A stretch of 12,139 nt of DNA from Nanobdellota archaeon (lineage in GTDB: Archaea; Nanobdellota; Nanobdellia; Woesearchaeales; JAGLGH01). The stretch covers positions 1 to 12,139 of the forward strand of contig JAGLGH010000014.1 in assembly GCA_023144115.1 (NCBI GenBank). Reading direction: 5' to 3'. This document shows, piece by piece, positions 1,171-12,102 of the stretch (its first letter is position 1; every line of letters begins with the position of its first letter). A program made the position numbers and the translations under genes. The notes beneath the pieces were generated by a model. The model searched no databases, was not told the DNA's origin, and saw only the letters and a list, made by a program, of their open reading frames with translations.

Positions 1171-4100
1171 TCATATCCTCAAGCTAACAACATGGCTTAT
1201 GCCATGCTCATTCATGCTGACGCCATATAGATTGTCTGCTTCTGCGATTACGCCGTCATTATGAGAGATGATGACATATTGCGATCTGCCAGAGTATTTG
1301 CTTACTAGCTTTGCCAGCTTTTCTGAGTTTTTCTTGTCAAGAGCTGCATCAACTTCATCAAGAACATAGAATGTGGCAGGATCATGCTCCTGGATAGCGA
1401 ATATGAAAGCAAGCGCAGTCATTGTCTTCTCGCCGCCGCTCAAGCCGCGAATATCCATGAATTTATCTCCTGAGAGTCTTACCTTTATATTCAATCCGCC
1501 CTCAAATGGACTATCAGGAGATTCCAATGCAAGTGATGCTTCTCCTTTTGTAGAAAGATTTGTGAATATCTCCTTAAAATGAGTATTGACAACATCATAT
1601 GTCTGCATAAAAAGCTCAGCTTTTTTAGTATCTATTTCCAGCATCAAATTAAGGACAGTCTCTTTTTCTTCCTGAAGCACGTCTTTCTTCTTTAGCAGAT
1701 TTTGGTATTCGCTTTCAACACTCTCATATATCTCAAGAGCCTTGAGATTGACAGGACCAGTCTCATCAACCATCCTTTCGAATTTTCTTATTTCTGACTT
1801 CAATTGGTCTTCATTCTTATTAGTGAAGAGCTTTACGCCATGATACTGCTCAAACTCATGTTCAATGCCAGTCAGCTCTGCACGGATTGCTGCAACCTGC
1901 AGGGAGATTGCATTTGACTTGTGCTCAGACTCTCTGCTTTTCCCCATGGAACTATCAACAAGCAACTCATTCTTTGATATCTCTTTCTGAATCTTGCTTC
2001 TCTTATTGAACAAGGATTTATATTGCGAATAGAATTGTGATACCAGCTCCTCTTTCTTTTTTAGCTCTTTCATTCCAGAAGCTATCTTTTCCTTCAACTG
2101 GGCAGCCTGAGCATTGAATTCTTTTTCATCTGTATCAAGCTGAAGAAGGTCTTTTGTGCCAGACTCTTTTTCCTTATTGAATATGCTGTCAATCTGCATC
2201 TGCATGTTCTTCAGTTCTGTTCCAAGTCCAACCATCTGCTCATTTAGCTGCGATCTTTTCTCTTCAAATGCATTGAGTTCTGCAAGCTTCAGAGGGTTTC
2301 TCAGTTCATTGACTTTTGAACGAAGTTCCTGCTTCTTTATCTTGAATGTTGCCAGCTCCCTATTTTGTTTGGAGATTGTATCCTGCATATGGCTTATCTT
2401 GCCAACTGCCTTTTCAAGTCCCCTGGAAAGTTCTTCTTTCTTCTTTTTTGATGCTCCCAGGTCACCAGAATCAAGATGAAGACTTTTCTCTGTTTTGATA
2501 ATTTCTCCTTCAAGTCCTGCCTTATCTTCGCGCAACCTGGTGATATTAACATCATAGTCTTCTCTCTTTTTCTCCATCACTGAGATTGAGTTCTGAAGTT
2601 CTGAGATATTGCCTTCAAGCTGACCTATATCCTGAGTAAGCTCCTTTTCCTTAAAACCATATCCAGACTTGCCTGATTTCCTATAACCACCATGCATGGC
2701 TCCGCTAAGTTCAGTCTTGTCACCCTCAAGAGTGACCATCTTTGCTTCCCCTATGCCCAGCCTCCTGGCAACATCAATATTGTCAACAACAAGGGTGTTA
2801 GCAAAGATATACTGAAAAACTTTCTTCAGCTTTGGCTCAAATTCAACAAGGTCAAGAGCAAGGCCTTCAACCCCTCTTGAGCCAGCAAGTTTCTTTATGT
2901 TGGAATCCTGTTCTTTGCTTTTGATTTTGTTCAATGGAAGAAATGTTGCTGTGCCGAGCCTGTTTGTCTTAAGGTATTTTATGCAGTCAGATGCTACTTT
3001 ATCATTTTCAACAACAATGCTCTTGATTCTTGGTCCTGCTGCTGTCTCAAGCGCAAGGGCAAATTTTGAGCTGACATTGCCTAATTCTGATACAGTTCCA
3101 AAGACTCCAGGAAATCTATTCTTGTTTTCGATTATTTTTCTAATTGCAAGATCCCCAGATATCCTTTCTTTGAGACCTGCTGTCCTTACCTGAAGTTTTG
3201 CAAGGTCTTCATTAGCTGCAAGAAGCTTTTTTCTTGATGCCCCAAGTTTTGCAGACATCATTGAATCCTCATCAAGGCATCTGTTCAGCTCAATCATTGC
3301 TGCCTTGAACCTGCTCTTCATCTGTTTAAGAGCATCAATCTGCGCCTTGTTCTCTTTCTCCACTTCAAGGACTTTGGATATCTTTTCATCTATGCCCTGA
3401 ATCTGGAAATTGAGCTGATCCTCTTCCCTTAGCATATTCTGCTGCTCTTCTCTAAGCACCTGCATATCGTTTTCTTTCTTTTCTATGATAATCTCCAACT
3501 CTTCAATCTGCTTTTCTATATCGCCTGCTCCAGCAAGGTTATTCTTTTCCTTGAAGGCTTTTATCTTGGCTTCAATCTTATCTTTTTCCTGCTTCATCTC
3601 TTCAAATGCCTTATTTTTCTCTGTTATTGATGAGCCCTTATCCTGGATATTCTGGCTTATGGCATCAAGATTGGACTTTATGTCCTGTTTTCTTGTTTTT
3701 ATCTTTTCTAATTCTGATTCAAGATGGCCAATCTGGTTTTTCTTGTTCGCAAGTTCAACCCTGAGATTTTCCACTTCCTTATTGATCTTGACCTGCTCGA
3801 CTTCACCCTTGTTCTCGACTTCTTTTGATATAGCTTCCATCTCTGCCTTAAGCTTAGTGTTGCTCTCTTTTATATCAGCAATTTTCTTATTAGCAGATTC
3901 AGTCTGGGAATTGAACTTCTCAACTTGTTCTTGCAGCTTATCTCTTTGCTTGGACTTATTGTCTATCTGCATCTTGAGGTATGTGGCCTTGTTCTGCTTT
4001 ATCTTGTCAGCCATCTCTTTATATTTCAATGCCTGATCGCGCTCTTTCTTCAGCTCCTTAAGATAATTATTTCTTTCAGAAAGTATGATGTCTGCCTCAT

Positions 4101-4668
4101 TCAGCTTATCTTCTACCTTGCCAAGCTCGCGCAGTGCATTCTGCTTTTTATCTTCATATACTGAGATACCTGCAATCTCTTCTATGATTTCCCTTCTCTG
4201 GTTCGGAGGCATCTCAACAAATCTCACAATATCTCCCTGAAGGATTATATTATATCCATTAGGATCAATCTTAGCTACTGAAAGAAGTTCAAGAATTTCC
4301 TGCCTTGTTCTTCGCTTGTCATTTATCTTATATATGCTCTGCCCGCTGCTCTTTATTACCCTAGTTACTTTAATCTGCTGCAGGTCTGTGGGAAATGTGC
4401 CTTTTGTGTTGTCAAAGAATATTGATACTTCACCTTCTTTTGCAGGCTTTTTTGATTTTCCACCATTATAGACAAGATTGGCACTTTTTTCCGCCCTTAG
4501 GGCACGTGAAGAGGATTTGCCGAGAACAAAGCATATGCTATCAAGGATATTAGACTTGCCGCTGCCATTCGGACCTAGTACACAGTTAAACTTTTCCCCA
4601 AAAAGCAGCTCAGTCTTGTTTGCAAAAGACTTGAATCCTCTGAGTGTGATTTTATTTATTCTTGTCAC
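1171..4668 (-). CDS. smc: Chromosome segregation ATPase SMC
   Basis: SMC is the ATPase core of the bacterial/archaeal condensin complex; it organises and segregates chromosomes by ATP-driven DNA looping. The 1165-residue product has the family's normal length and domain order: N-terminal head with Walker A GPNGSGKSN (about 32-40) and Q-loop ILQGDI (about 141-146), a long charged coiled coil (about 170-510), an SMC hinge (about 515-670, starting FPGVFGTVSEL and ending near SGAMHGGYRKSG), the returning coiled coil, and a C-terminal head with signature LSGGEK (about 1076-1081), Walker B FYVLDEVDAALD (catalytic E near 1105) and H-loop IISHND. All ATPase motifs are intact. I chose GTG at 4668 (MTRINKITLRGFKSF): AGGTG sits six bases before it, and the protein then starts as archaeal SMCs do. 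An in-frame GTG at 4677 would lie within that same AGGTG. The gene starts 11-20 bp after rnhB and is probably co-transcribed with it. Kleisin partners (ScpA/ScpB) are not in the window. Confidence 0.97.
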   Translation of the reverse strand: MTRINKITLRGFKSFANKTELLFGEKFNCVLGPNGSGKSNILDSICFVLGKSSSRALRAEKSANLVYNGGKSKKPAKEGEVSIFFDNTKGTFPTDLQQIKVTRVIKSSGQSIYKINDKRRTRQEILELLSVAKIDPNGYNIILQGDIVRFVEMPPNQRREIIEEIAGISVYEDKKQNALRELGKVEDKLNEADIILSERNNYLKELKKERDQALKYKEMADKIKQNKATYLKMQIDNKSKQRDKLQEQVEKFNSQTESANKKIADIKESNTKLKAEMEAISKEVENKGEVEQVKINKEVENLRVELANKKNQIGHLESELEKIKTRKQDIKSNLDAISQNIQDKGSSITEKNKAFEEMKQEKDKIEAKIKAFKEKNNLAGAGDIEKQIEELEIIIEKKENDMQVLREEQQNMLREEDQLNFQIQGIDEKISKVLEVEKENKAQIDALKQMKSRFKAAMIELNRCLDEDSMMSAKLGASRKKLLAANEDLAKLQVRTAGLKERISGDLAIRKIIENKNRFPGVFGTVSELGNVSSKFALALETAAGPRIKSIVVENDKVASDCIKYLKTNRLGTATFLPLNKIKSKEQDSNIKKLAGSRGVEGLALDLVEFEPKLKKVFQYIFANTLVVDNIDVARRLGIGEAKMVTLEGDKTELSGAMHGGYRKSGKSGYGFKEKELTQDIGQLEGNISELQNSISVMEKKREDYDVNITRLREDKAGLEGEIIKTEKSLHLDSGDLGASKKKKEELSRGLEKAVGKISHMQDTISKQNRELATFKIKKQELRSKVNELRNPLKLAELNAFEEKRSQLNEQMVGLGTELKNMQMQIDSIFNKEKESGTKDLLQLDTDEKEFNAQAAQLKEKIASGMKELKKKEELVSQFYSQYKSLFNKRSKIQKEISKNELLVDSSMGKSRESEHKSNAISLQVAAIRAELTGIEHEFEQYHGVKLFTNKNEDQLKSEIRKFERMVDETGPVNLKALEIYESVESEYQNLLKKKDVLQEEKETVLNLMLEIDTKKAELFMQTYDVVNTHFKEIFTNLSTKGEASLALESPDSPFEGGLNIKVRLSGDKFMDIRGLSGGEKTMTALAFIFAIQEHDPATFYVLDEVDAALDKKNSEKLAKLVSKYSGRSQYVIISHNDGVIAEADNLYGVSMNEHGISHVVSLRI

Positions 4669-4674
4669 TTTAAG

Positions 4675-4679
4675 CACCT
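4675..4679 (-). promoter_or_regulatory. Ribosome binding site deciding the smc start
   Basis: AGGTG on the minus strand, six bases before GTG at 4668. It overlaps the alternative upstream GTG (4677), which therefore would have no Shine-Dalgarno of its own. This favours the shorter SMC. Confidence 0.5.
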
Positions 4680-4688
4680 ATAGGCTTG

Positions 4689-5345
4689 TTAAAAATCAGT
4701 CAATCCTCTCTGTTTCTTTTTTTCAACAACCCTCTTGTATGATGCCCAGGTTTTTCTGAATATTTCTTTGTGTGTTTCGTAGTTTTCATTAAGGAACTTT
4801 ACTGTCCTGGGGTCTGAAGGGTATCCTGAGCCAAAGTCTATCCTTATCCTGTCCTTGATTTTCTTTATTTCCCTGTCTCTTGTGACTTTTGCAAGGATTG
4901 ATGCTGCTCCAACAACTGGATAATTTACATCTGCCTTGTGTTCTGATATTATTTTTACAGATTTGTTGTTTAGTTTGTTTTTTACATATTCTGTATATGC
5001 AGGGATGTTTGTGCTTGGGCAGTCAAGGATTGCAGTGTCAGGGCTTAAGTTGTCTATTAGCTTTGCTGAGGTAACTGCTTCAAGCCAGTTCAGGTTCATG
5101 TTTGGATCTAATAATGCGTTATCTACTTCTGCTGCAGAGAGGATTATTATTTCGTATTTTACTACTGCTTGTTTGATTTTGTCAAATAATGCTTCTCTTT
5201 TTTCTGGAGTGAGGAGCTTGGAGTCTTTGACTCCCATTTCTACCAAAAGGTGTTCGTCGTCTTTATCTATGTTGACACCTGCCATTACTAATGGTCCTAT
5301 GACTGGCCCTCTTCCTGCTTCTTCTACTCCGCATATGATTGTCAT
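4689..5345 (-). CDS. rnhB: Ribonuclease HII (archaeal type)
   Basis: RNase HII cuts the RNA strand of RNA/DNA hybrids, including single ribonucleotides in DNA. The 218-residue product matches the archaeal/eukaryotic subfamily: N-terminal GVEEAGRGPVIGPLV (6-20), GVKDSKLLTPEKRE (38-51), ILDCPS with catalytic D108, EHKADVNYPVVGAASILAKV (135-154) with D139, and GSGYPSDPRT (172-181). Oddly, the first catalytic Asp of the usual G-[IV]-D-E-A-G-R-G motif is Glu here (E8); the codons read GAA GAA. The other three acidic residues are present. The last residues, QRGLTDF (212-218), resemble a PCNA-interacting (PIP) box, so tethering to the sliding clamp is plausible. The ATG at 5345 has a TATA box 27 nt upstream and no Shine-Dalgarno, suggesting a leaderless transcript. 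It is the first gene of the minus-strand block, ahead of smc. Confidence 0.95.
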   Translation of the reverse strand: MTIICGVEEAGRGPVIGPLVMAGVNIDKDDEHLLVEMGVKDSKLLTPEKREALFDKIKQAVVKYEIIILSAAEVDNALLDPNMNLNWLEAVTSAKLIDNLSPDTAILDCPSTNIPAYTEYVKNKLNNKSVKIISEHKADVNYPVVGAASILAKVTRDREIKKIKDRIRIDFGSGYPSDPRTVKFLNENYETHKEIFRKTWASYKRVVEKKKQRGLTDF

Positions 5346-5368
5346 GTTAGAGGATGAAGATGAGGGGG

Positions 5369-5376
5369 TTAATAAA
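5369..5376 (-). promoter_or_regulatory. TATA box of rnhB(-smc)
   Basis: TTTATTAA on the minus strand, centred about 27 nt before the rnhB ATG at 5345. The spacing predicts transcription starting at the start codon. Confidence 0.5.
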
Positions 5377-5458
5377 GGTTTTGTCTTGGGTGTTTGTGTG
5401 TTAGTCTGATTATTGATTACATGGTAATTTTAGGGGTGGTTGAATTTTCATTTCTTTT

Positions 5459-5475
5459 TTCGGAAAATCTCCGAA
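5459..5475. repeat. Small perfect inverted repeat between divergent promoters
   Basis: TTCGGA (5459-5464) and TCCGAA (5470-5475) form a 6-bp perfect inverted repeat with a 5-base spacer. T-rich and A-rich flanks (TTTCTTTT before, AAAAGAAA after) can extend the pairing with bulges. It lies between rnhB and the divergent six-gene operon, about 16 bases before the first operon TATA candidate. It could bind a regulator or be an RNA hairpin; the function is not known. Confidence 0.35.
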
Positions 5476-5490
5476 TTTAAAAAGAAAAGG

Positions 5491-5526
5491 TTATAAAAGA
5501 ATACTACTTATTAGGAGTAATATAAA
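5491..5526 (+). promoter_or_regulatory. Promoter region of the six-gene operon (two TATA candidates)
   Basis: Two archaeal TATA-like sites precede the cyclase gene: TTATAAAA (5491-5498) and AATATAAA (5519-5526). The first would start RNA near 5521 and give a leader of about 50 nt; the second would start near 5549 and give about 22 nt, still including the GGAG at 5556-5559. Unlike the leaderless genes in this window, this operon therefore appears to have a 5' leader with a Shine-Dalgarno. Which box is used cannot be decided from sequence. Confidence 0.45.
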
Positions 5527-5570
5527 TTTGAAATTAAACAAAATATTTGATATATGGAGACTTTTTTAAG

Positions 5571-6581
5571 ATGATACCAAAACTATTAATTGAAGATAAT
5601 GAAATTGATTTAACAGATTATACTAAAGTTGTTGCTATTGTTGATAAAGATGTTCATAAATTACATGGAGCATTTTTGCACAAACATTTCAAAGATATTA
5701 TCTTTATTAAATCAAAAGAAAAAAGAAAAAATATTGATAATATAGTTCCAATACTCAAGAGCCTTACTGATAGAAATCTTGATAGAAATTCTTGTCTAGT
5801 TGCAATAGGTGGAGGAGTTATTGGAGATATCACAGGGTTTATGGCTTCAATTTATATGAGAGGAATAGATTTTATTCAAATACCCACAACATATATGGCA
5901 ATGTGTGACCATATTATTGGCAAAGTGGCAATATCAAATGTAAAAAAGAATGTTTTTGGTTCATTTTATAGTCCCAAGAGAACTTATATTTTCAAAACAT
6001 TTATTAAAACACTTCCACAAAAACTGATTAATCAAGGTTTTGCTGAAGTGTTAAAAAATTATTTTATTATAAATAATAAAGAATTGAAAAAAATAATTAT
6101 GAAAGAAAAAATTAAAACTGAAGACCTTATAGAAGCAGTTAAAATTTCTCATGAAATTAAATCTTTCTTTGTAAAAGAAGACCCAAGAGATACAAAGGGT
6201 TTGCACAAGGCATTAAGTTATGGCCATACTTTTGCCAATGCAATTGAAAAAATAGATCAAAACATAAATCATGGTGAAGCAGTTTTAAAAGGAATGATAC
6301 TTGCTGCCAAACTTTCATATCAATTAGGTCTGCTTAAAGAGAAAGAATTTCTCGAGCACATGAATATTTGTGAAAAACTAGAAAGAAAATTTGATGCAAA
6401 AATAAAAATTGAGAGATATAATATTGATAATATGTTACAATCTTTTAAAACTGATAAACTTTCTTGTGGTGGGAAAATGAAATTTGTTCTACTTACAAAA
6501 ATTGGAAAATATGAGATTATTGAAGTAGAAGAAGAGCAAGTAAAAACTCTTCTTTTGAGAGAGTGTGAAAATGATGCTTAA
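5571..6581 (+). CDS. 3-dehydroquinate synthase-like sugar phosphate cyclase
   Basis: This 336-residue cytosolic enzyme belongs to the NAD- and metal-dependent sugar phosphate cyclase superfamily (dehydroquinate synthase, 2-epi-5-epi-valiolone synthase, 2-deoxy-scyllo-inosose synthase), which closes a sugar phosphate into a carbocycle. Visible motifs are the NAD loop GGGVIGDITGF (80-90), YMRGIDFIQIPTT (95-107), D113/K118 and KNVFGSFYSPK (126-136). Metal ligands are E159 (GFAEVLK), H219 (YGHTF) and H234 (NHGEA), all present. By eye, three positions that bind substrate in true dehydroquinate synthases differ: GLR to GLH (H212), LNxGHT to LSYGHT (S216) and GHTFGH to GHTFAN (N223). The DxxxGGKT loop is about two residues shorter. 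The substrate may therefore not be that of AroB, and no shikimate genes are nearby. I chose ATG 5571, with GGAG 11 bases upstream, over an in-frame TTG at 5547. It is the first gene of an overlapping operon; its end overlaps the next gene by 11 nt. Confidence 0.85.
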   Translation: MIPKLLIEDNEIDLTDYTKVVAIVDKDVHKLHGAFLHKHFKDIIFIKSKEKRKNIDNIVPILKSLTDRNLDRNSCLVAIGGGVIGDITGFMASIYMRGIDFIQIPTTYMAMCDHIIGKVAISNVKKNVFGSFYSPKRTYIFKTFIKTLPQKLINQGFAEVLKNYFIINNKELKKIIMKEKIKTEDLIEAVKISHEIKSFFVKEDPRDTKGLHKALSYGHTFANAIEKIDQNINHGEAVLKGMILAAKLSYQLGLLKEKEFLEHMNICEKLERKFDAKIKIERYNIDNMLQSFKTDKLSCGGKMKFVLLTKIGKYEIIEVEEEQVKTLLLRECENDA

Positions 6582-7461
6582 TATGCACAAACAAAATATT
6601 GATTTACAATTGTATAATCCAAAAGATGATGGAGCTACAAAAAAGCTGTTAAAACAATATATCCCAGATGTAAAATTTGATGATCTTTTCCCTTTAAAGT
6701 CAACTTATGATATGACTTTTCCAATAACAATTGAAAAAGGAGAACCATTTTATCAAACAAACCCCTTGGGCGTGAGGTATAGAACTCCAGAAATAGTTAG
6801 AGGGGATGTGATGGCACTTGTTTCAAGACATGCCGAATACCTTTGGGCGAATAAAGGTATTTATTCAGTTCATTCTTCTTCAGTAAATATTGATGGAAAA
6901 ACAATACTTATTCCTGGAAGAAGTGGTGCTGGTAAAACAACTCTTATGATGGAACTTATAAAAAAATTCCCACAAACAAAAATAATTTCTGGTGATAGAA
7001 CACTTATTGACAACGAAGAAATTGTTGGAGGAACTAAACTACTTAATTTTATCGCAAGTTCGTTAAAAGAGGAATTTCCTTACATGGCTGATGTTCTTGA
7101 TACTTATACTGTAAGAGATAGAATTAGACTTGCTCCAGAGAACAGTCCTTTTGATTATCAACAAGAACCAGCAATAACGGATGCGATAGTGTATCCACAA
7201 AAACATTCAGGTAAATTTATTGTTCAAGAACTTGAAGGAATTCCAAAGTTCACAAGATTTGTTAATCAAGGTTATCATTTTTTGGATGAATTTCCTAGAT
7301 TATTACTTGGGATTATGGAACCTTTAAGTACTCCAGTTACTAATGAAGATAGAAAAAGAGTGCTTGATGAAATGAGAAATTTAACTGATAAGACACCATC
7401 ATATGCCTTGGCTGGAAAACTTACTGAGATGGTTGATTTTATTAGGCGGGAGGTCTTATGA
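6571..7461 (+). CDS. HPr kinase-like P-loop kinase
   Basis: This 296-residue protein resembles the catalytic domain of HPr kinase/phosphorylase and related PEP-carboxykinase-fold kinases. The signature stretch is VHSSSVNIDGKTILIPG followed by Walker A GRSGAGKTT (about 116-124, K122/T123), then IISGD (about 138-142), whose Asp could act as the catalytic base. The H-x-S-x-V strand just before the P-loop is typical of this family. Classical HprK phosphorylates Ser46 of HPr in the phosphotransferase system. No HPr or other PTS gene is seen here, so a small-molecule or different protein substrate is likelier; relatives phosphorylate free serine or peptides. The N-terminal 90 residues are not recognisable. 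ATG 6571 is preferred, with GAGAG about ten bases upstream; GTG 6565 and ATG 6574 or 6583 are alternatives. It overlaps the cyclase end and shares ATGA with the next gene. Confidence 0.78.
   Translation: MMLNMHKQNIDLQLYNPKDDGATKKLLKQYIPDVKFDDLFPLKSTYDMTFPITIEKGEPFYQTNPLGVRYRTPEIVRGDVMALVSRHAEYLWANKGIYSVHSSSVNIDGKTILIPGRSGAGKTTLMMELIKKFPQTKIISGDRTLIDNEEIVGGTKLLNFIASSLKEEFPYMADVLDTYTVRDRIRLAPENSPFDYQQEPAITDAIVYPQKHSGKFIVQELEGIPKFTRFVNQGYHFLDEFPRLLLGIMEPLSTPVTNEDRKRVLDEMRNLTDKTPSYALAGKLTEMVDFIRREVL
7448..7454 (+). promoter_or_regulatory. Strong ribosome binding site for the methyltransferase
   Basis: GGGAGGT three bases before ATG 7458, which overlaps the kinase stop codon as ATGA. The site lies inside the kinase coding sequence and fixes the start of the next gene. 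Confidence 0.6.
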
Positions 7462-8315
7462 ACAAACAACTAAAATTTTTGCTAAAAGCAAATTTACAAA
7501 AAGACCTTGAAATTTATCGGAAAAAAATTAGCAAAGTAAAGGGAATTCCACTTATCACTTATGATAAAAAAACAGAAGAATATAAAATAGATTTTTCTTC
7601 TATCGGTGAAAGAAATCCTCTGAAGAGGGTAATATTTGAACATATTCCATTAAAAGATAATAATGTCGCCAATTATCATATTAGACAGGAAGACATACTA
7701 ATTTTTCATGAGCAAATGCTTAGTGACCTTTCACAAAGATTTCCACAAATGGCTGAAAATCTTAATGAAACTACATGGCAATATTGGCAGATGTTACAAA
7801 ATTATGCTGAGTTCAGAAAATATTTCAATTATTACAAAGAAGCATTTAGAATAGCAATGGAGCTTAGATCAGAAGAAACTGGAACTGTTATTGATGTTGG
7901 TGTTAAAAACTCAACAGTTGTCCTTGAAATGTTTGGTAATGGTTATGAAAAAACTGCAATGGATAATGATTTCCCAAAAGGATTTAAACCAATTGATAAG
8001 AATATTAGAATATTGGATGCTGACCTTTTTACATATAATATTAAAACTCCTTACAATATTGTTATGTGTCAACAAGTCCTTGAGCACCTTGATGACCCTC
8101 AAAAAGCTTTTAGCCATCTTGAAGTGCTTTCAAATGATGTAGTGGTTATTTCGGTTCCTTATGGTTCATGGCACAAGACACAACATGACCCTATTGATAA
8201 AGAAAAGGTAAAATCTTGGACAGGAAGAACTCCAGAACTTGAGTCCGTGGTTGAAGATTTTGGAGTAAAAAGGTATGTTGCAGGATACAAAGGAGGTAAA
8301 GAAAATGCTAAATAA
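7458..8315 (+). CDS. Class I SAM-dependent methyltransferase with novel N-terminal region
   Basis: The C-terminal half of this 285-residue protein reads as a Rossmann-fold methyltransferase: motif I strand and loop GTVIDVGVKNSTVVLEMFG (142-160), an acidic residue after strand 2 (TAMDND, 167-171), DADLFTYNI (187-195), and post-II motif VMCQQVLEHLDDPQKAF (202-218), close to the Methyltransf_11/23 pattern. The glycine-rich loop is degenerate: DVGVKNS instead of DxGCGxG. SAM binding is therefore likely but not certain. Residues 1-135 match no domain I know; they are polar and rich in Trp/Tyr near 105-125 (TTWQYWQMLQNYAEFRKYF), perhaps a substrate-binding or helical cap domain. It starts in an ATGA overlap with the kinase and overlaps the next gene by 11 nt, so translation is probably coupled. 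The methyl acceptor is unknown; in the operon's context a cyclitol or nucleotide-linked intermediate is possible. Confidence 0.75.
   Translation: MNKQLKFLLKANLQKDLEIYRKKISKVKGIPLITYDKKTEEYKIDFSSIGERNPLKRVIFEHIPLKDNNVANYHIRQEDILIFHEQMLSDLSQRFPQMAENLNETTWQYWQMLQNYAEFRKYFNYYKEAFRIAMELRSEETGTVIDVGVKNSTVVLEMFGNGYEKTAMDNDFPKGFKPIDKNIRILDADLFTYNIKTPYNIVMCQQVLEHLDDPQKAFSHLEVLSNDVVVISVPYGSWHKTQHDPIDKEKVKSWTGRTPELESVVEDFGVKRYVAGYKGGKENAK
8291..8297 (+). promoter_or_regulatory. Ribosome binding site deciding the nucleotidyltransferase start
   Basis: AGGAGGT seven bases before ATG 8305. This favours 8305 over the in-frame upstream ATG at 8275, which lies 41 bases inside the methyltransferase gene and lacks such a site. 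Confidence 0.65.
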
Positions 8316-9096
8316 ATTTGATAATGATGATAGAAAAGAAGAACAACTAGAAGTTATTGCTGAGAATCTTCATAGAAGTGTTGAAAAAAATAGTAAAGGC
8401 GCTATAATTATTGGTTCTTTTGCACATAGTAAAGGATATGCTATTAGACAAGGGACTGATATTGATGCAATGGTGTTTTGTAACTTGGAAGAGATTAAAG
8501 AAATTCTTCAAACCTCAATTTATGAAGATTATGAACCAGTATCATTAGATTTAGCAACAAAATATTTTTTACAAGGGATAACAAACCTTATGAGCACCCG
8601 CCATGATGCAAATGGGTCATTGGTTACAGTTCATTATATGACCCCACAAACTTTTGTTCAAAAATTTGCAAATGGAATCACTCCAAACATACTTCATTCT
8701 TTTAGAAAAGTTCCTAAGGAATATATTTATCGCTTCAAGAATTTTGCTGGTGACTCAATTGCAGTCCCAGTTGAGAATGAAGCAATTGAAGGAGGATATA
8801 GGACCCCAATGGAAACATCAAAAATAGTTGGGGGTCATTATTATTCTGGTTCTCCTCATAATAAATTGATGAGCGCACCAACAATTCTTTTTGATAAAGA
8901 AGGTTTTATTCAACCTGCTATTGATAAACTTAGAATTGATCTTGCTAAAAGACTTTTGTATGAACATGGAAAATATATTAACCAGACAGAATTGTCTGTG
9001 GTTAATACCCTTATAAGACAAGAAAAGATTAAACCTGATATTTTACAAGATCTTTATGAAAGAGAAAAAGAGACATTTGAGGGGGTAATAAATTGA
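8305..9096 (+). CDS. Pol-beta superfamily nucleotidyltransferase
   Basis: This 263-residue protein carries the hallmark of Pol-beta-type nucleotidyltransferases: a GS loop in AIIIGSFAHSKG (33-44), then TDIDAMVF (51-58), whose D52 and D54 would bind the metal ions. Such enzymes transfer an NMP from an NTP to a protein, RNA, antibiotic or other small molecule. A third catalytic carboxylate is not obvious: the likely strand reads SLVTVHYMTP (105-114), with His where Asp/Glu is often found. The remainder (about 115-263), with VGGHYYSGSPHNKLMS (175-190) and a helical tail, is not a domain I recognise. It fits neither CCA-adding enzymes nor kanamycin nucleotidyltransferases clearly, and similarity to CD-NTases does not go beyond the shared core. 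The start is set by AGGAGGT at 8291. It overlaps the methyltransferase by 11 nt and the next gene by 4 nt (TTGA). Confidence 0.75.
   Translation: MLNKFDNDDRKEEQLEVIAENLHRSVEKNSKGAIIIGSFAHSKGYAIRQGTDIDAMVFCNLEEIKEILQTSIYEDYEPVSLDLATKYFLQGITNLMSTRHDANGSLVTVHYMTPQTFVQKFANGITPNILHSFRKVPKEYIYRFKNFAGDSIAVPVENEAIEGGYRTPMETSKIVGGHYYSGSPHNKLMSAPTILFDKEGFIQPAIDKLRIDLAKRLLYEHGKYINQTELSVVNTLIRQEKIKPDILQDLYEREKETFEGVIN
9079..9086 (+). promoter_or_regulatory. Ribosome binding site for the TTG-started TIM-barrel gene
   Basis: GAGGGGGT six bases before TTG 9093. It supports the unusual TTG start, which overlaps the preceding TGA stop as TTGA. Confidence 0.5.
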
Positions 9097-9803
9097 AACA
9101 GAAATTAGTCTTTGGAAGCGGAACTTTTTATAAAGAAGGTTTAAATCTCAAAGCGCAAAGAGATATACTTATGACTCTTGATATTGATGGAGTAGAATTA
9201 TGTATGGCTCAAACTGAAGAGATGGATGAAATTGATGATGAACATATTTCTTTTTTACGAAGATATGATTATAATATCCTTCATGCCCCATTTAAGAAAA
9301 AATATCTGATTACTGAAAGTAATAAACTAGAAGAATTTGAAAGGCTGATTACTCTAGCTAAAAAGATTAAAGCTCACCATATTGTTTTTCATCTTTATAA
9401 TGTTGAGTCGCTGAATATACTTAGTGATTTTCCATATCCTTTTACAATAGAGAATACTCTTACTGGTGACTGGAATGGAGATAAGATTATCCAAACAGTG
9501 AAGTCTAATCCTAATTGTATTATGACTCTTGATACAAGCCATGCTTTTCATTTTGGTATTAAAGAATTTTTTTTACTCACAAGTAATCTTAGGGATAAAA
9601 TAAAACATGTTCATTTAAGTAACATCATTGATGGTGTTCATCATAGGCAATTTGTTCATGTTGAAAATAGTTTACATAAATTAAAAAGAATTATGGAAAG
9701 ACTACCTTATGCTGAAATAATTACTATGGAAGAGAATTTCAGTAATAATGAAGATATACCAAAAGAGATTGAATTAGTAAGAAAGGTGATTAATAATGAA
9801 TGA
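9093..9803 (+). CDS. Xylose isomerase/endonuclease IV-like TIM-barrel protein
   Basis: This 236-residue protein has the pattern of the AP-endonuclease-2 family of TIM barrels, which covers sugar isomerases/epimerases, hydrolases and endonuclease IV. Strand-end metal ligands are visible in order: E35 (GVELC), H64 (ILHAPF), H100 (IVFHLY), E120 (TIENT), D147 and H150 (LDTSH), H174 (HVHLSN), H183/H184 and E213/E214 (TMEEN). The D-x-x-H spacing equals that of the zinc sites in endonuclease IV, and the set is nearly complete, so it should bind metal. At 236 residues it is shorter than Nfo (about 280). Beside a sugar cyclase, a sugar or cyclitol isomerase/epimerase role is more likely than DNA repair. 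It starts with TTG in a TTGA overlap with the nucleotidyltransferase and overlaps the Nudix gene by 8 nt. Confidence 0.8.
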   Translation: MKQKLVFGSGTFYKEGLNLKAQRDILMTLDIDGVELCMAQTEEMDEIDDEHISFLRRYDYNILHAPFKKKYLITESNKLEEFERLITLAKKIKAHHIVFHLYNVESLNILSDFPYPFTIENTLTGDWNGDKIIQTVKSNPNCIMTLDTSHAFHFGIKEFFLLTSNLRDKIKHVHLSNIIDGVHHRQFVHVENSLHKLKRIMERLPYAEIITMEENFSNNEDIPKEIELVRKVINNE

Positions 9804-10200
9804 TGGCGTAGGAATGCTTGTTGAGCATGAAGGTAAGTTTTTGATTCTGTTAAGAACTAATGATGAATTTTGGGAGTGTCCTAAAGGTCACATCGAAGTG
9901 AATGAGTCTCATAGAGATACTATTAAAAGAGAACTGATGGAAGAATGTAAACTTAAAGAATTTGCAGTAAAAGATAAAATTGGAGACATGGTATTTTCTT
10001 TCATAATTAAAAAGACAGGCAAACATAAAACAAGAATAATTACTTATTATCATATTATAAGCCATACTAACCTAATTGAAATATCTGAAGAGCATCAAGC
10101 ATATTTATGGCTAAGGCAAGAAGATTTTCTGGCTAAACTGAAATTTGAGGATATTAAAAATCTCTTAAAAGAGTATTTTGATAAAATACAAATCAGATGA
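9796..10200 (+). CDS. Nudix hydrolase, diadenosine-tetraphosphatase-like
   Basis: Nudix enzymes hydrolyse a nucleoside diphosphate linked to another group. In this 134-residue protein the Nudix box runs from G31 to L53 (GHIEVNE, seven residues, RELMEECKL). The metal-binding R-E-x-x-E-E core (R45, E46, E49, E50) is intact, while the glycine near the end of the consensus is Lys (K52). FWECPKGHIE just before and into the box matches the W-x-x-P-K-G-H-x-E pattern of Ap4A hydrolases of the NUDT2/archaeal type, so a (di)nucleoside polyphosphate or NDP-linked compound is a fair guess. The ATG at 9796 has AGGTGAT about seven bases upstream and overlaps the TIM-barrel gene by 8 nt. It is the last gene of the operon; its TGA stop lies inside the left arm of a stem-loop repeat that could end transcription. 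Confidence 0.85.
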   Translation: MNDGVGMLVEHEGKFLILLRTNDEFWECPKGHIEVNESHRDTIKRELMEECKLKEFAVKDKIGDMVFSFIIKKTGKHKTRIITYYHIISHTNLIEISEEHQAYLWLRQEDFLAKLKFEDIKNLLKEYFDKIQIR

Positions 10201-10237
10201 CCACAGTTTCAGGTATCTTTATTTTGTGGTCACCTTT
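10194..10237. repeat. Stem-loop repeat, copy 1
   Basis: This 44-bp sequence matches 11160-11203 at 39 positions. Arms TGACCACA (10198-10205) and TGTGGTCA (10225-10232) form a perfect 8-bp inverted repeat around a 19-base T-rich loop. It contains the Nudix stop codon and sits between convergent coding sequences (Nudix plus, methyltransferase remnant minus). A bidirectional terminator is the simplest role; similarity to copy 2 continues weakly to about 10252 with one indel. Confidence 0.7.
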
Positions 10238-10249
10238 ATCAAGAGTTTC

Positions 10250-10495
10250 TTATCTCTTCCTCAATTCAAAAATCATAAATAATGGAATCTTTTGATGGAT
10301 TTCCCAGAAGACTGCATTTTCTTCCTTTGCTGCATCTATTGATTTAGGTTCAATGAAATCAATAATCTCAAATCTGGATTTAATAATATCTTTTATTATG
10401 GAGGACATAGATTTATGATAAAAGAGGACTTCAAAATCATTAAACCATACATCTTTTATTTTTCTTGTATTGAGAGAATCTCCGGAAATTTTGCA
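10250..10495 (-). pseudogene. Remnant of a SAM-dependent methyltransferase C-terminus
   Basis: Hand translation gives about 80 residues ending at TAA (10250-10252) and limited upstream by an in-frame TGA (10496-10498). Visible pieces are KIKDVWFNDFEVLFYHKS, IIKSRFEIIDFIEPK, ENAVFWEIHQKIP and LFMIFELRKR. This is the usual tail of Methyltransf_11-like enzymes (W-F...YH+x(L/M)S..I...L...GF.I..F.EP...F.....+IP.F+IF). The SAM-binding half is absent: no frame between here and the GNAT gene encodes it. A minus-strand AGGAGGT (10559-10565) survives upstream but precedes no long frame. It is therefore a decayed gene fragment, not an active enzyme. It lies in the 375-bp stretch between the operon and the GNAT gene and ends next to repeat copy 1. 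Confidence 0.6.
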
Positions 10496-10575: not shown

Positions 10576-11052
10576 ATGGAAATTAGAAAAGCAAATAATA
10601 ATGATTTAGAACAATTAACTCAACTCATGATTGAATTTAAAGATGGTTTGACTGATTTTGAACCTGAAGATCTCAAACTATTTCGTAGAAAAATAAAATC
10701 TATAGATTTAATTAAAAAATCAGTTAAAGAAGAAATTGATAATCCAAACGGACTATTTTTAGTTGCAGAAGATGAAAACAAATTAGTGGGTTTTGCTGTT
10801 GGTACAACTAGAGAAAATATCCATCTGGTTTATGACACAGTAAAATCCGGGATGTTAAATCACATATGGATAACAAACAATTATAGGGGTCGAGGTTTAG
10901 CTTCAAAATTTAAAGACAATTTGTTTCAATGGTTTAAAGACAACAATTGTAAATATATTAAATTGTTAGTTTTAGACGCAAATCCTGCTAAGCACATTTA
11001 TGAAAAATGGGGTTTTGAAATAGTATTAGATTCAATGGTGAAAGTAATCTGA
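10576..11052 (+). CDS. GNAT family N-acetyltransferase
   Basis: This 158-residue protein has the GNAT fold, which transfers an acetyl group from acetyl-CoA to an amine. An N-terminal strand MEIRKANNNDLEQL opens the domain. FLVAEDENKLVGFAVGTT (61-78) is the strand 2-3 hairpin. LNHIWITNNYRGRGLASKF (94-112) carries the acetyl-CoA pyrophosphate loop (R104-G-R-G-L-A), and VLDANPAKHIYEKWGFEIV (132-150) is the motif B region. Length and motifs are normal and complete. The acceptor cannot be told: antibiotic, polyamine or protein N-terminus are all possible. It stands alone, with its own TATA box 27 nt upstream and no Shine-Dalgarno, so it is probably monocistronic and leaderless. It converges on the Fic gene, with stem-loop repeat copy 2 between them. 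Confidence 0.88.
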   Translation: MEIRKANNNDLEQLTQLMIEFKDGLTDFEPEDLKLFRRKIKSIDLIKKSVKEEIDNPNGLFLVAEDENKLVGFAVGTTRENIHLVYDTVKSGMLNHIWITNNYRGRGLASKFKDNLFQWFKDNNCKYIKLLVLDANPAKHIYEKWGFEIVLDSMVKVI

Positions 11053-11159: not shown

Positions 11160-11203
11160 CAGGTGACCACTTTTTCAGATGTCTTTATTTTGTGGTCACC
11201 TTT
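11160..11203. repeat. Stem-loop repeat, copy 2
   Basis: AGGTGACCAC (11161-11170) and GTGGTCACCT (11192-11201) form a perfect 10-bp inverted repeat around a 21-base T-rich loop. The 44-bp unit is 39/44 identical to 10194-10237. It sits between the convergent GNAT and Fic genes and encodes the last residues of Fic (VTTK and its stop). A terminator function is plausible; the copy number elsewhere in the genome is unknown. Confidence 0.75.
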
Positions 11204-12102
11204 CTAAGGGTTTTCTTATATTGTTTTATCAGGAAATTAAGGGAGGGTCTTAGTTTGTCATTTTTTTCATATTCCTGCAGAGTATAGTAATATTCCCCCC
11301 TGTCTTCTAAGAGTATGTTTATTGGAGGGTATTTATTTCGCACTAATATAAAATTCAATAATAATCTTCCAACTCTGCCATTTCCATCTTGAAATGGATG
11401 TATGTCTTCAAATTGGTTATGAATAATTGCGGCAAGAGCCAGGGGTTTGAAGATTTCTTTATTCTTTTTATACCATAGAATCAATTCATTTAACTCTTTA
11501 TCTAAATTTTCTATTGGCGTTCCAGAATGAATTATTTCACCACCCCTATCCCTAATAACAACTTCTACATTTCTTAATTTACCTGCAAAATGTTTTGAAC
11601 CTTTAAAACATAGTTCATGTAATTTTAATATCAAATTAACTGATAAATCCTGTTTTGTTTTTCTTATATATTCGATAGCTTTTGCAACCCCTTTTGTTTC
11701 AATCTCTTCATCATCATTAGTTTCTTTCTTTTTTAGAATCTTAGGAACTTCTTCTTTAAGGATTGTTGACCCTTCTATTGCATTTGTATTATATACAAAT
11801 TCTTCAGTAAATTGCTGCCATTGTTTCTCATTAAAGTGGAAGATTGTAATTTTGTCATCATATTTATTGAGAGATTCAATCTGCTTTTCTGTTAAGGAGA
11901 ACTCAAATACATCTGATTCTAGGGATTTTAACAAATTAAGAAGTGAATTCCTTGCTTTTTTAGTTAATATCTCCAGTTTCTGGGGGGCAAGGTTGCTCCC
12001 CAGATATTTTCTTATTTTTTGAACCTTATTATTTATATCCCTATATGAATGAACTAAATAATATTTAATATTCTTACCAGATTTTCTTTTTTCGATGTAC
12101 AT
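11185..12102 (-). CDS. Fic family protein (class II, self-inhibited AMPylase)
   Basis: Fic enzymes usually transfer AMP from ATP to a hydroxyl group on a target protein. This 305-residue protein has the catalytic motif HPFQDGNGR (235-243) in full, with H235 as the base, and the helix that follows (VGRLLLNFIL). The inhibitory motif (S/T)xxxE(G/N) is present before the domain as TNAIEG (106-111), with E110 expected to block productive ATP binding. This places it in class II, regulated within its own chain, so no separate antitoxin is needed and none is visible. Residues 1-40 (MYIEKRKSGKNIKYYLVHSY...RKYLGSNL) form a basic beta-rich segment often seen ahead of archaeal Fic domains. The ATG at 12102 lies 27 nt after a TATA box, suggesting a leaderless transcript. 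The last residues come from stem-loop repeat copy 2. The target protein is unknown. Confidence 0.92.
   Translation of the reverse strand: MYIEKRKSGKNIKYYLVHSYRDINNKVQKIRKYLGSNLAPQKLEILTKKARNSLLNLLKSLESDVFEFSLTEKQIESLNKYDDKITIFHFNEKQWQQFTEEFVYNTNAIEGSTILKEEVPKILKKKETNDDEEIETKGVAKAIEYIRKTKQDLSVNLILKLHELCFKGSKHFAGKLRNVEVVIRDRGGEIIHSGTPIENLDKELNELILWYKKNKEIFKPLALAAIIHNQFEDIHPFQDGNGRVGRLLLNFILVRNKYPPINILLEDRGEYYYTLQEYEKNDKLRPSLNFLIKQYKKTLRKVTTK

Follow-up and report, generated by a model that had tools for sequence, protein, structure and literature searches.

What could a set of six tightly overlapping genes, headed by a sugar phosphate cyclase, produce in a DPANN archaeon? DPANN archaea are commonly viewed as partner organisms of reduced make-up, in which secondary metabolism is scarce. 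The genes (g1 to g6) lie on a contig of a Nanobdellota archaeon, in the window (the whole stretch of DNA analysed, 12,139 nucleotides). As the preliminary description had reported, all six are on the plus strand and every junction overlaps, by 11, 4, 11, 4 and 8 nt from g1 to g6, with clear Shine-Dalgarno-like runs upstream of four genes (g3, g4, g5 and g6). They are presumably co-transcribed as one operon; a putative TATA-like promoter element (gttataaaag, 5490..5499, plus strand) is located about 70 nt upstream of the first ATG, and a hairpin with 11-nt arms that are 91% complementary (10195..10235, plus strand) may be a terminator at the operon end. The reading that we favor, with a probability of about 40%, is that the six genes constitute a horizontally acquired small-molecule pathway, encoded by one operon, in which a carbocycle is formed and then tailored. 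No six-gene set like it was found in the open-licence PMC literature, which agrees with the original remark that no described system has exactly this composition.

Host genome and probable acquisition of the operon

The operon was probably acquired horizontally, because it is absent from the same SMC-RNase HII site in a genome of the same genus and because its GC3 is low (0.15-0.23, against a median of 0.28 for 29 further long ORFs from the same genome; p 2e-4). Composition alone would be a weak argument, since four of those 29 ORFs are also at or below a GC3 of 0.23.

The suggestion that this archaeon is probably poor in biosynthesis is contradicted in part: the host genome encodes chorismate synthase and EPSP synthase, which are late shikimate genes, and contains genes that look, by eye, like those for trp, prephenate dehydrogenase and prephenate dehydratase.

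The cyclase and its altered active site

The first gene, g1 (5571..6581, plus strand), encodes an AroB-like sugar phosphate cyclase whose active site is altered. It matches PF01761 (4.8e-33) and PF24621 (2.3e-25), and its score of 252 bits with the aroB equivalog model does not reach the cut-off of 305. Residue numbers, and the roles of Arg264, Asn268, His275, Lys250 and Lys356, are taken here to be those of the A. nidulans dehydroquinate synthase. A survey of 193 genomes of the order yielded 38 g1-like matches, spread over 36 genomes. Of the 37 AroB-like matches other than g1 itself, the 30 with the best scores were compared, and the remaining seven were read separately. In g1, Arg264, Asn268 and His275 are replaced by H, S and N, and the GGK loop is changed and lacks one residue, whereas all of these features are intact in each of the 30 best matches. 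Among the lower-scoring seven, three (L143, L144 and L145) possess all three residues and L141 possesses Arg264 and His275 with A in place of Asn268; a simple scan gave no motif for L142 (divergent), L146 (at a contig end) and L147 (a fragment), which are therefore unscored. The three changes of g1 were found in none of the four scorable proteins.

In the tree, g1 falls within the 34-row AroB side with support of 99/94, on the longest branch of all (1.82). Lys250 and Lys356 are conserved in g1, as in all 30 AroB-like proteins compared, and are lost in the EEVS-like, DDGS-like and EboD rows; their retention is not specific to the AroB side, because two unassigned Streptomyces cyclases outside it also keep them (Lys250 in both, Lys356 in one). 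Placement of g1 with the four non-AroB rows of EEVS/DDGS type was weakly rejected, with a borderline p-AU of 0.043; placement with EboD was likewise weakly rejected (p-AU 0.019, borderline), and the tree puts g1 outside the EboD clade. The analogy to C7-cyclitol and mycosporine pathways that was drawn initially is thereby weakened. Judged by its sequence, g1 is unlikely to be either an ordinary AroB or a C7-cyclitol synthase.

A role for g1 as the shikimate dehydroquinate synthase of the host, substituting for a lost AroB next to unrelated neighbors, is distinctly unlikely. Such a role would fit the observations that PF01761 has no match in the assembly other than g1, that no PF01959 match was found there, and that the genome encodes chorismate synthase and EPSP synthase, but it would have to be performed by an active site altered at positions that the 30 best-scoring AroB-like matches from the order leave intact. 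Moreover, completeness of the assembly is 87%. A search for DAHP synthase, which had no positive control in this genome, also found nothing; in the same-genus genome G106, DAHP synthase is encoded beside aroB, and the AroB of G106 is a separate, high-scoring one. In G106, aroB is preceded by a gene whose counterpart in G000 is followed by a different gene, so that synteny argues neither for nor against an AroB beyond the assembly.

Enzymes encoded downstream of the cyclase

The second gene, g2 (6571..7461, plus strand), encodes an HPr-kinase-like P-loop kinase that is modelled with the PEPCK/HprK fold. All of its matches to the HPr-kinase/PEPCK family are below threshold, including that to the Pfam HPr kinase C-terminal domain (21.1 bits; cut-off 33.3). 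Its start is the ATG at 6571 or that at 6574; the close relative P0010 opens with MMLNMHKQ, matching 6571. The product of g3 (7458..8315, plus strand) resembles SAM-dependent methyltransferases of the Methyltransf_23 family at a sub-threshold score (23.7 bits; cut-off 27) and carries an additional N-terminal part of roughly 105-130 residues. The product of g4 (8305..9096, plus strand) has no significant match in Pfam and none in NCBIfam; it is labelled a putative polymerase-beta-type nucleotidyltransferase because of its GS-x13-DxD motif and its relatives. The pattern for such enzymes is, we assume, hG[GS]x(9-13)Dx[DE], which the motif of g4 fits. D52 and D54 are invariant in all seven close rows, and DxD is present in 17 of 17 rows of a wider alignment; the third carboxylate is not evident, T108 being aligned with D in L019 and with E in L022.

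The fifth gene, g5 (9093..9803, plus strand), starts with TTG and encodes a xylose-isomerase-like TIM barrel (PF01261, 1e-9) with a weak CbiR match (4.8e-5); a sequence comparison with the PDB gave no relatives up to an E of 1. The protein may be an isomerase, an epimerase or a dehydratase. The Nudix hydrolase encoded by g6 (9796..10200, plus strand) passes the cut-off for PF00293 (4.3e-10; 40.1 bits against 21.1), has the Nudix box GHIEVNESHRDTIKRELMEE, and finds its closest solved relatives among Ap4A hydrolases (3u53, 1.3e-8).

The patchy distribution and low GC content of the operon, with a GNAT gene and a Fic gene downstream of it, could also be those of an RNA-modifying, nucleotide-modifying or defence cassette, whose kinase, methyltransferase, nucleotidyltransferase and Nudix enzyme would target RNA ends or nucleotides, such as a carbocyclic nucleotide. 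PADLOC returned matches for g2 (mad8, 6.8e-6), g5 (PDC-M70B, 2.9e-9) and g6 (PDC-S07, 1e-11), but these are read as tracking the broad P-loop, TIM barrel and Nudix families, and there was no PADLOC match for g1, g3 or g4. To our knowledge, RNA-modifying or defence systems do not usually include a sugar phosphate cyclase, and we regard this explanation as very improbable.

A candidate pathway beside known gene clusters

If the six genes are instead an acquired carbocycle pathway, g1, as a derived AroB-type cyclase, would convert a sugar-phosphate precursor to a carbocycle with loss of phosphate; in our opinion the precursor would be carboxylated and DAHP-like. The carbocycle would be isomerised, epimerised or dehydrated by g5, a phosphate would be placed on the ring or on a carrier group by g2, and a nucleotidyl (or other) group would be attached to that phosphate by g4. 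Methylation would be due to g3, and g6 may hydrolyse a nucleotide-linked by-product or intermediate. Every catalytic step, the order of steps, the precursor and the product are what we infer for these enzymes.

A precedent for the proposed g2 and g4 steps is found in pseudomycoidin, where, as far as the excerpt of the source goes, a kinase phosphorylates a serine and a nucleotidyltransferase adds a hexose to that phosphate (PMC8498205). The lasso peptide clusters of paeninodin and pseudomycoidin resemble the operon in having an HPr-kinase homologue, accompanied in the pseudomycoidin cluster by the nucleotidyltransferase that acts on its phosphate (same excerpt); they differ in that the scan of window proteins turned up neither a lasso protease nor an asparagine-synthetase-like gene. 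The ebo operon also has six genes (eboA-F), for which the excerpted description gives no kinase, methyltransferase, nucleotidyltransferase or Nudix gene (PMC5133447). Conversely, no UbiA domain (EboC) or PF01663 domain (EboF) was found among nine window proteins scanned, g5 has no significant BLASTP similarity to two EboE proteins, and g1 is outside the EboD group. Clusters of sedoheptulose 7-phosphate cyclases of EEVS or DDGS type share with the operon the succession of a sugar phosphate cyclase and tailoring enzymes, and a DDGS-like gene adjoins an O-methyltransferase gene in two loci (L097 and L098); g1 differs by its position on the AroB side and its two conserved lysines.

Relatives of the operon genes in other genomes

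Profile and sequence searches of overlapping genome draws found relatives of the three central genes, with the operon's own genome counted in: for g2, 13 of 371 phylum genomes at E 1e-5 (best other 1.2e-23); for g3, 20 of 371 phylum genomes at E 1e-8 (best other 1.3e-14); and for g4, 14 of 279 phylum genomes at E 1e-3 (best other 7e-18) and, by profile, 10 of 352 order genomes (best other 7.7e-24). Ten contig sizes recur among the relatives of g2, g3 and g4. Three are in all three lists (140676, 13971 and 5950 bases), and the sizes 206846, 84337, 51401, 3532, 2357, 2414 and 2008 bases are common to two; the g2 and g3 relatives listed with 2008 bases would jointly take up about 1.7 kb of that size. 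Because relatives recur on contigs of the same size, the kinase, methyltransferase and nucleotidyltransferase appear to be conserved together beyond chance. Of the preliminary interpretation, the view of the six genes as a single overlapping set is supported, with g2, g3 and g4 as the conserved core; product and target are guesses. The start of one protein, P0004, resembles a cyclase N-terminus at 8 of 16 residues, the sole hint that g1, g5 or g6 may accompany this trio.

When the six proteins and the GNAT protein were compared by tblastn with 138 of 147 loci (nine own-genome loci being left out, and loci from the g4 and g3 profile searches having flanks of only about 1.5 kb), two window proteins occurred together only in L133 and L134 (g2 and g6). 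Thirteen loci with distant g4 relatives contained no further window gene at E 0.01, except for a cyclase piece in L024 (E 0.002). Plasmid searches gave 115 records for g1, each below 60% identity, and no match for g3 or g4; there was no match for g2 in phages, and viral contigs gave none either.

Around distant DPANN relatives of the g2 kinase, Nudix genes were found at 6 of 11 loci, compared with 0 of 13 in the control (p 0.003, Fisher test). They were counted among hand-chosen neighbors, and the Nudix profile used had been made from g6 together with six of the seven domains that it then detected. The kinase matches that define L137-L140 are weak (1.6e-7 to 3.2e-6). Methyltransferase genes also neighbor these kinases, and fusions occur (Nudix-MT in L133 and L134, GT2-Nudix in L131, NT-Nudix in L140). 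A glycosyltransferase gene is close by at 7 of the 11 loci, as might be expected if g2, g3, g4 and g6 tailor a polymer such as a surface glycan, glycolipid or peptide, for which g1 and g5 supply a ring-shaped building block. Modification of a lasso peptide by an HPr-kinase homologue and a nucleotidyltransferase, in the excerpt cited above (PMC8498205), would also suit such a role; no glycosyltransferase was found among nine window proteins scanned, so that these enzymes would have to be encoded elsewhere. We consider polymer tailoring rather doubtful, and still the strongest competitor of the small-molecule pathway that we favor.

An inositol-phosphate synthase neighbors a distant kinase once, in L140 of the DPANN genome G510, where genes for inositol-1-phosphate synthase, NT-Nudix, a CTP-synthase-like protein, an HprK-like kinase, PfkB and Nudix are closely packed on one strand. 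The combination of a ring-forming enzyme with kinase, nucleotidyltransferase and Nudix is that of the operon, but the ring-forming family is another, the six genes include no methyltransferase or TIM barrel, and the kinase is only distantly related to g2 (3.2e-6). It is conceivable, if unlikely, that both are examples of a hitherto undescribed type of mobile cassette in DPANN archaea. In cassettes of this type, ring-forming enzymes would be interchangeable (AroB-derived here, inositol-phosphate synthase in L140) and would feed a shared kinase-nucleotidyltransferase-Nudix core, often with a methyltransferase, to yield a new sort of nucleotide-activated carbocycle destined for a lipid, a nucleic acid or a surface glycan. 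If the pathway is indeed mobile and its cyclase fingerprint new, the sugar phosphate cyclase superfamily would gain a branch, and DPANN cells would be shown to perform tailored small-molecule chemistry.

A search of genome contigs gave no match for g4 and eight weak matches for g2, none of them beside another window protein at E 0.1. By eye, an asparagine-synthetase-like gene adjoins two of these weak matches (L040 and L041), as in lasso clusters, and the surroundings of two others (L039 and L046) resemble those of ordinary HprK.

Operon layout and genomic setting

The window is the complete contig C46 (12139 bases) of a 1.72-Mb assembly in 408 contigs that is 86.9% complete. The overlapping arrangement on which the preliminary description based its operon was borne out when the window was re-read: genes for an AroB-like cyclase (g1), an HPr-kinase-like kinase (g2), a methyltransferase (g3), a putative nucleotidyltransferase (g4), a xylose-isomerase-like barrel (g5) and a Nudix hydrolase (g6) occupy 5571-10200, all on the plus strand, with successive overlaps of 11, 4, 11, 4 and 8 nt and Shine-Dalgarno-like sites upstream of g3, g4, g5 and g6. 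A hairpin is located at the g6 stop codon.

The gene set was probably acquired. In the one same-genus genome in our lists (G106), the SMC and RNase HII genes are found in the same order with 72% DNA identity, other genes come next with no operon at the site, and searches for g4, g3 and g2 gave no match. GC3 is 0.15-0.23 in the operon versus 0.42 in SMC and 0.36 in RNase HII; a set of 29 additional long ORFs from the genome has a median of 0.28, with four of them as low as the operon.

Genes for a GNAT acetyltransferase (10576-11052) and a Fic-domain protein (11185-12102) share the operon's low-GC stretch and perhaps belong with it to one variable region. By eye, an open stretch on the minus strand at 10250-10400 looks like a methyltransferase gene reduced to its C-terminal part, and is a possible remnant; the stretch at 1-1137, also on the minus strand, looks by eye like an incomplete MFS-type transporter gene cut by the contig end. 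An interspersed, MITE-like repeat of ~178 bp (locus L096, 8292-8469) is bounded by terminal inverted repeats of 43 nt that agree at 77%. Among the matches listed, it recurs on 15 contigs of the window's assembly at 79-96% identity, often over only part of its length, with no convincing copy within the window.

Conserved core and distant kinase loci

Protein searches returned eight rows with g4 as query, 13 with g2 and 24 with g3, each including one for the window's own cluster. Longest contigs of 140676, 13971 and 5950 bases occur in all three lists, and those of 206846, 84337, 51401, 3532, 2357, 2414 and 2008 bases in two, ten coincidences very unlikely to arise by chance. A partner's contig size was matched in six of the seven other g4 rows, nine of the 12 other g2 rows, eight of the 14 g3 rows P0023-P0036 and none of the nine weaker g3 rows P0037-P0045. 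This measure is indirect, relying on equal sizes rather than contig names, and partners can be missed; the rows for the window's own trio differ in size among themselves (5245, 2969 and 3516). One relative, P0004, has a start that looks like the N-terminal end of the cyclase, with 8 of 16 residues shared.

Distant g2-like kinases were found in 12 non-window genomes, and 11 loci were read, three of them on contigs shorter than 4.5 kb. With a profile whose source sequences were g6 together with six of its own seven domain hits, Nudix was found near the kinase in six of the 11 (L131, L133, L134, L137, L138 and L140, of which L133 and L134 belong to one genus and L137 and L140 to one family) and in none of 13 control loci, those of distant g4 relatives (Fisher p 0.003). 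Among 40 hand-chosen proteins around the kinases, glycosyltransferases are present at seven of the 11 loci, methyltransferases at four, nucleotidyltransferases at three (two polymerase-beta type, one PF00483), and a PF01261 barrel and an inositol-1-phosphate synthase at one each; Nudix-methyltransferase, GT2-Nudix and nucleotidyltransferase-Nudix fusions also occur. The kinase matches defining L137-L140 are weak (1.6e-7 to 3.2e-6). In the DPANN locus L140, genes for inositol-1-phosphate synthase, a nucleotidyltransferase-Nudix fusion, a CTP-synthase-like protein, an HprK-like kinase, a PfkB kinase and Nudix are closely packed on one strand (2063-8090).

L133 (5585-6436) and L134 (6083-6946) each carry another gene with weak HprK likeness, facing the g2-like kinase gene and next to a GT2 gene and a Nudix-methyltransferase fusion. 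Distant g4-type genes adjoin an opposite-strand calcineurin-type phosphoesterase-like gene in five of 12 loci read (L016, L017, L018, L020 and L021), with Pfam confirmation in the two checked.

The cyclase and the host shikimate pathway

A search of 193 genomes from the order gave 37 PF01761 matches besides g1, and the 30 that scored best were compared with it. Where we take Arg264, Asn268 and His275 to lie, g1 carries H, S and N, and its GGK loop is one residue shorter; all 30 keep the three residues and the full loop. Four of the seven lower-scoring matches could be judged: three keep all three residues and one has A for Asn268. The residues that we take, in number and role, to be Lys250 and Lys356 are present in g1 and lost in EEVS-like, DDGS-like and two EboD rows; of two Streptomyces cyclases that carry no assignment and lie beyond the AroB side of the tree, both have Lys250 and one has Lys356. 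A 40-row tree places g1 on the AroB side (support 99/94) on its longest branch (1.82), and constraining g1 to four EEVS/DDGS/Streptomyces rows or to EboD is weakly rejected (p-AU 0.043 and 0.019, respectively). We infer a derived AroB, perhaps with a carboxylated, DAHP-like sugar phosphate as substrate.

Because the genome encodes EPSP synthase and chorismate synthase, and its 86.9% complete assembly contains neither a PF01959 match nor a PF01761 match besides g1, g1 may serve the host shikimate pathway. DAHP synthase was not found in the same assembly, which may reflect a gap. In G106, aroB adjoins a DAHP synthase gene (L096, 8566-10736); counterparts of neither were found in the window's genome, where later shikimate genes are present.

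A candidate six-step pathway

The gene set is real and rare, its g2-g3-g4 core is conserved and its cyclase fingerprint is unusual. The best reading, to which we assign a probability of roughly 40%, is a pathway in which g1 would close a ring, g5 rearrange the product, g2 phosphorylate it, g4 transfer a group onto the phosphate added by g2, g3 methylate and g6 hydrolyse a nucleotide-linked species. Such a pathway is a plausible candidate. Pseudomycoidin (PMC8498205) offers a precedent for pairing a kinase with a subsequent nucleotidyltransferase. Although the window differs from the ebo operon (PMC5133447; L099) in that no UbiA or PF01663 gene is found among the window proteins scanned, the two are alike in that the ebo cyclase adjoins a xylose-isomerase-like barrel, comparable to g1 with g5.
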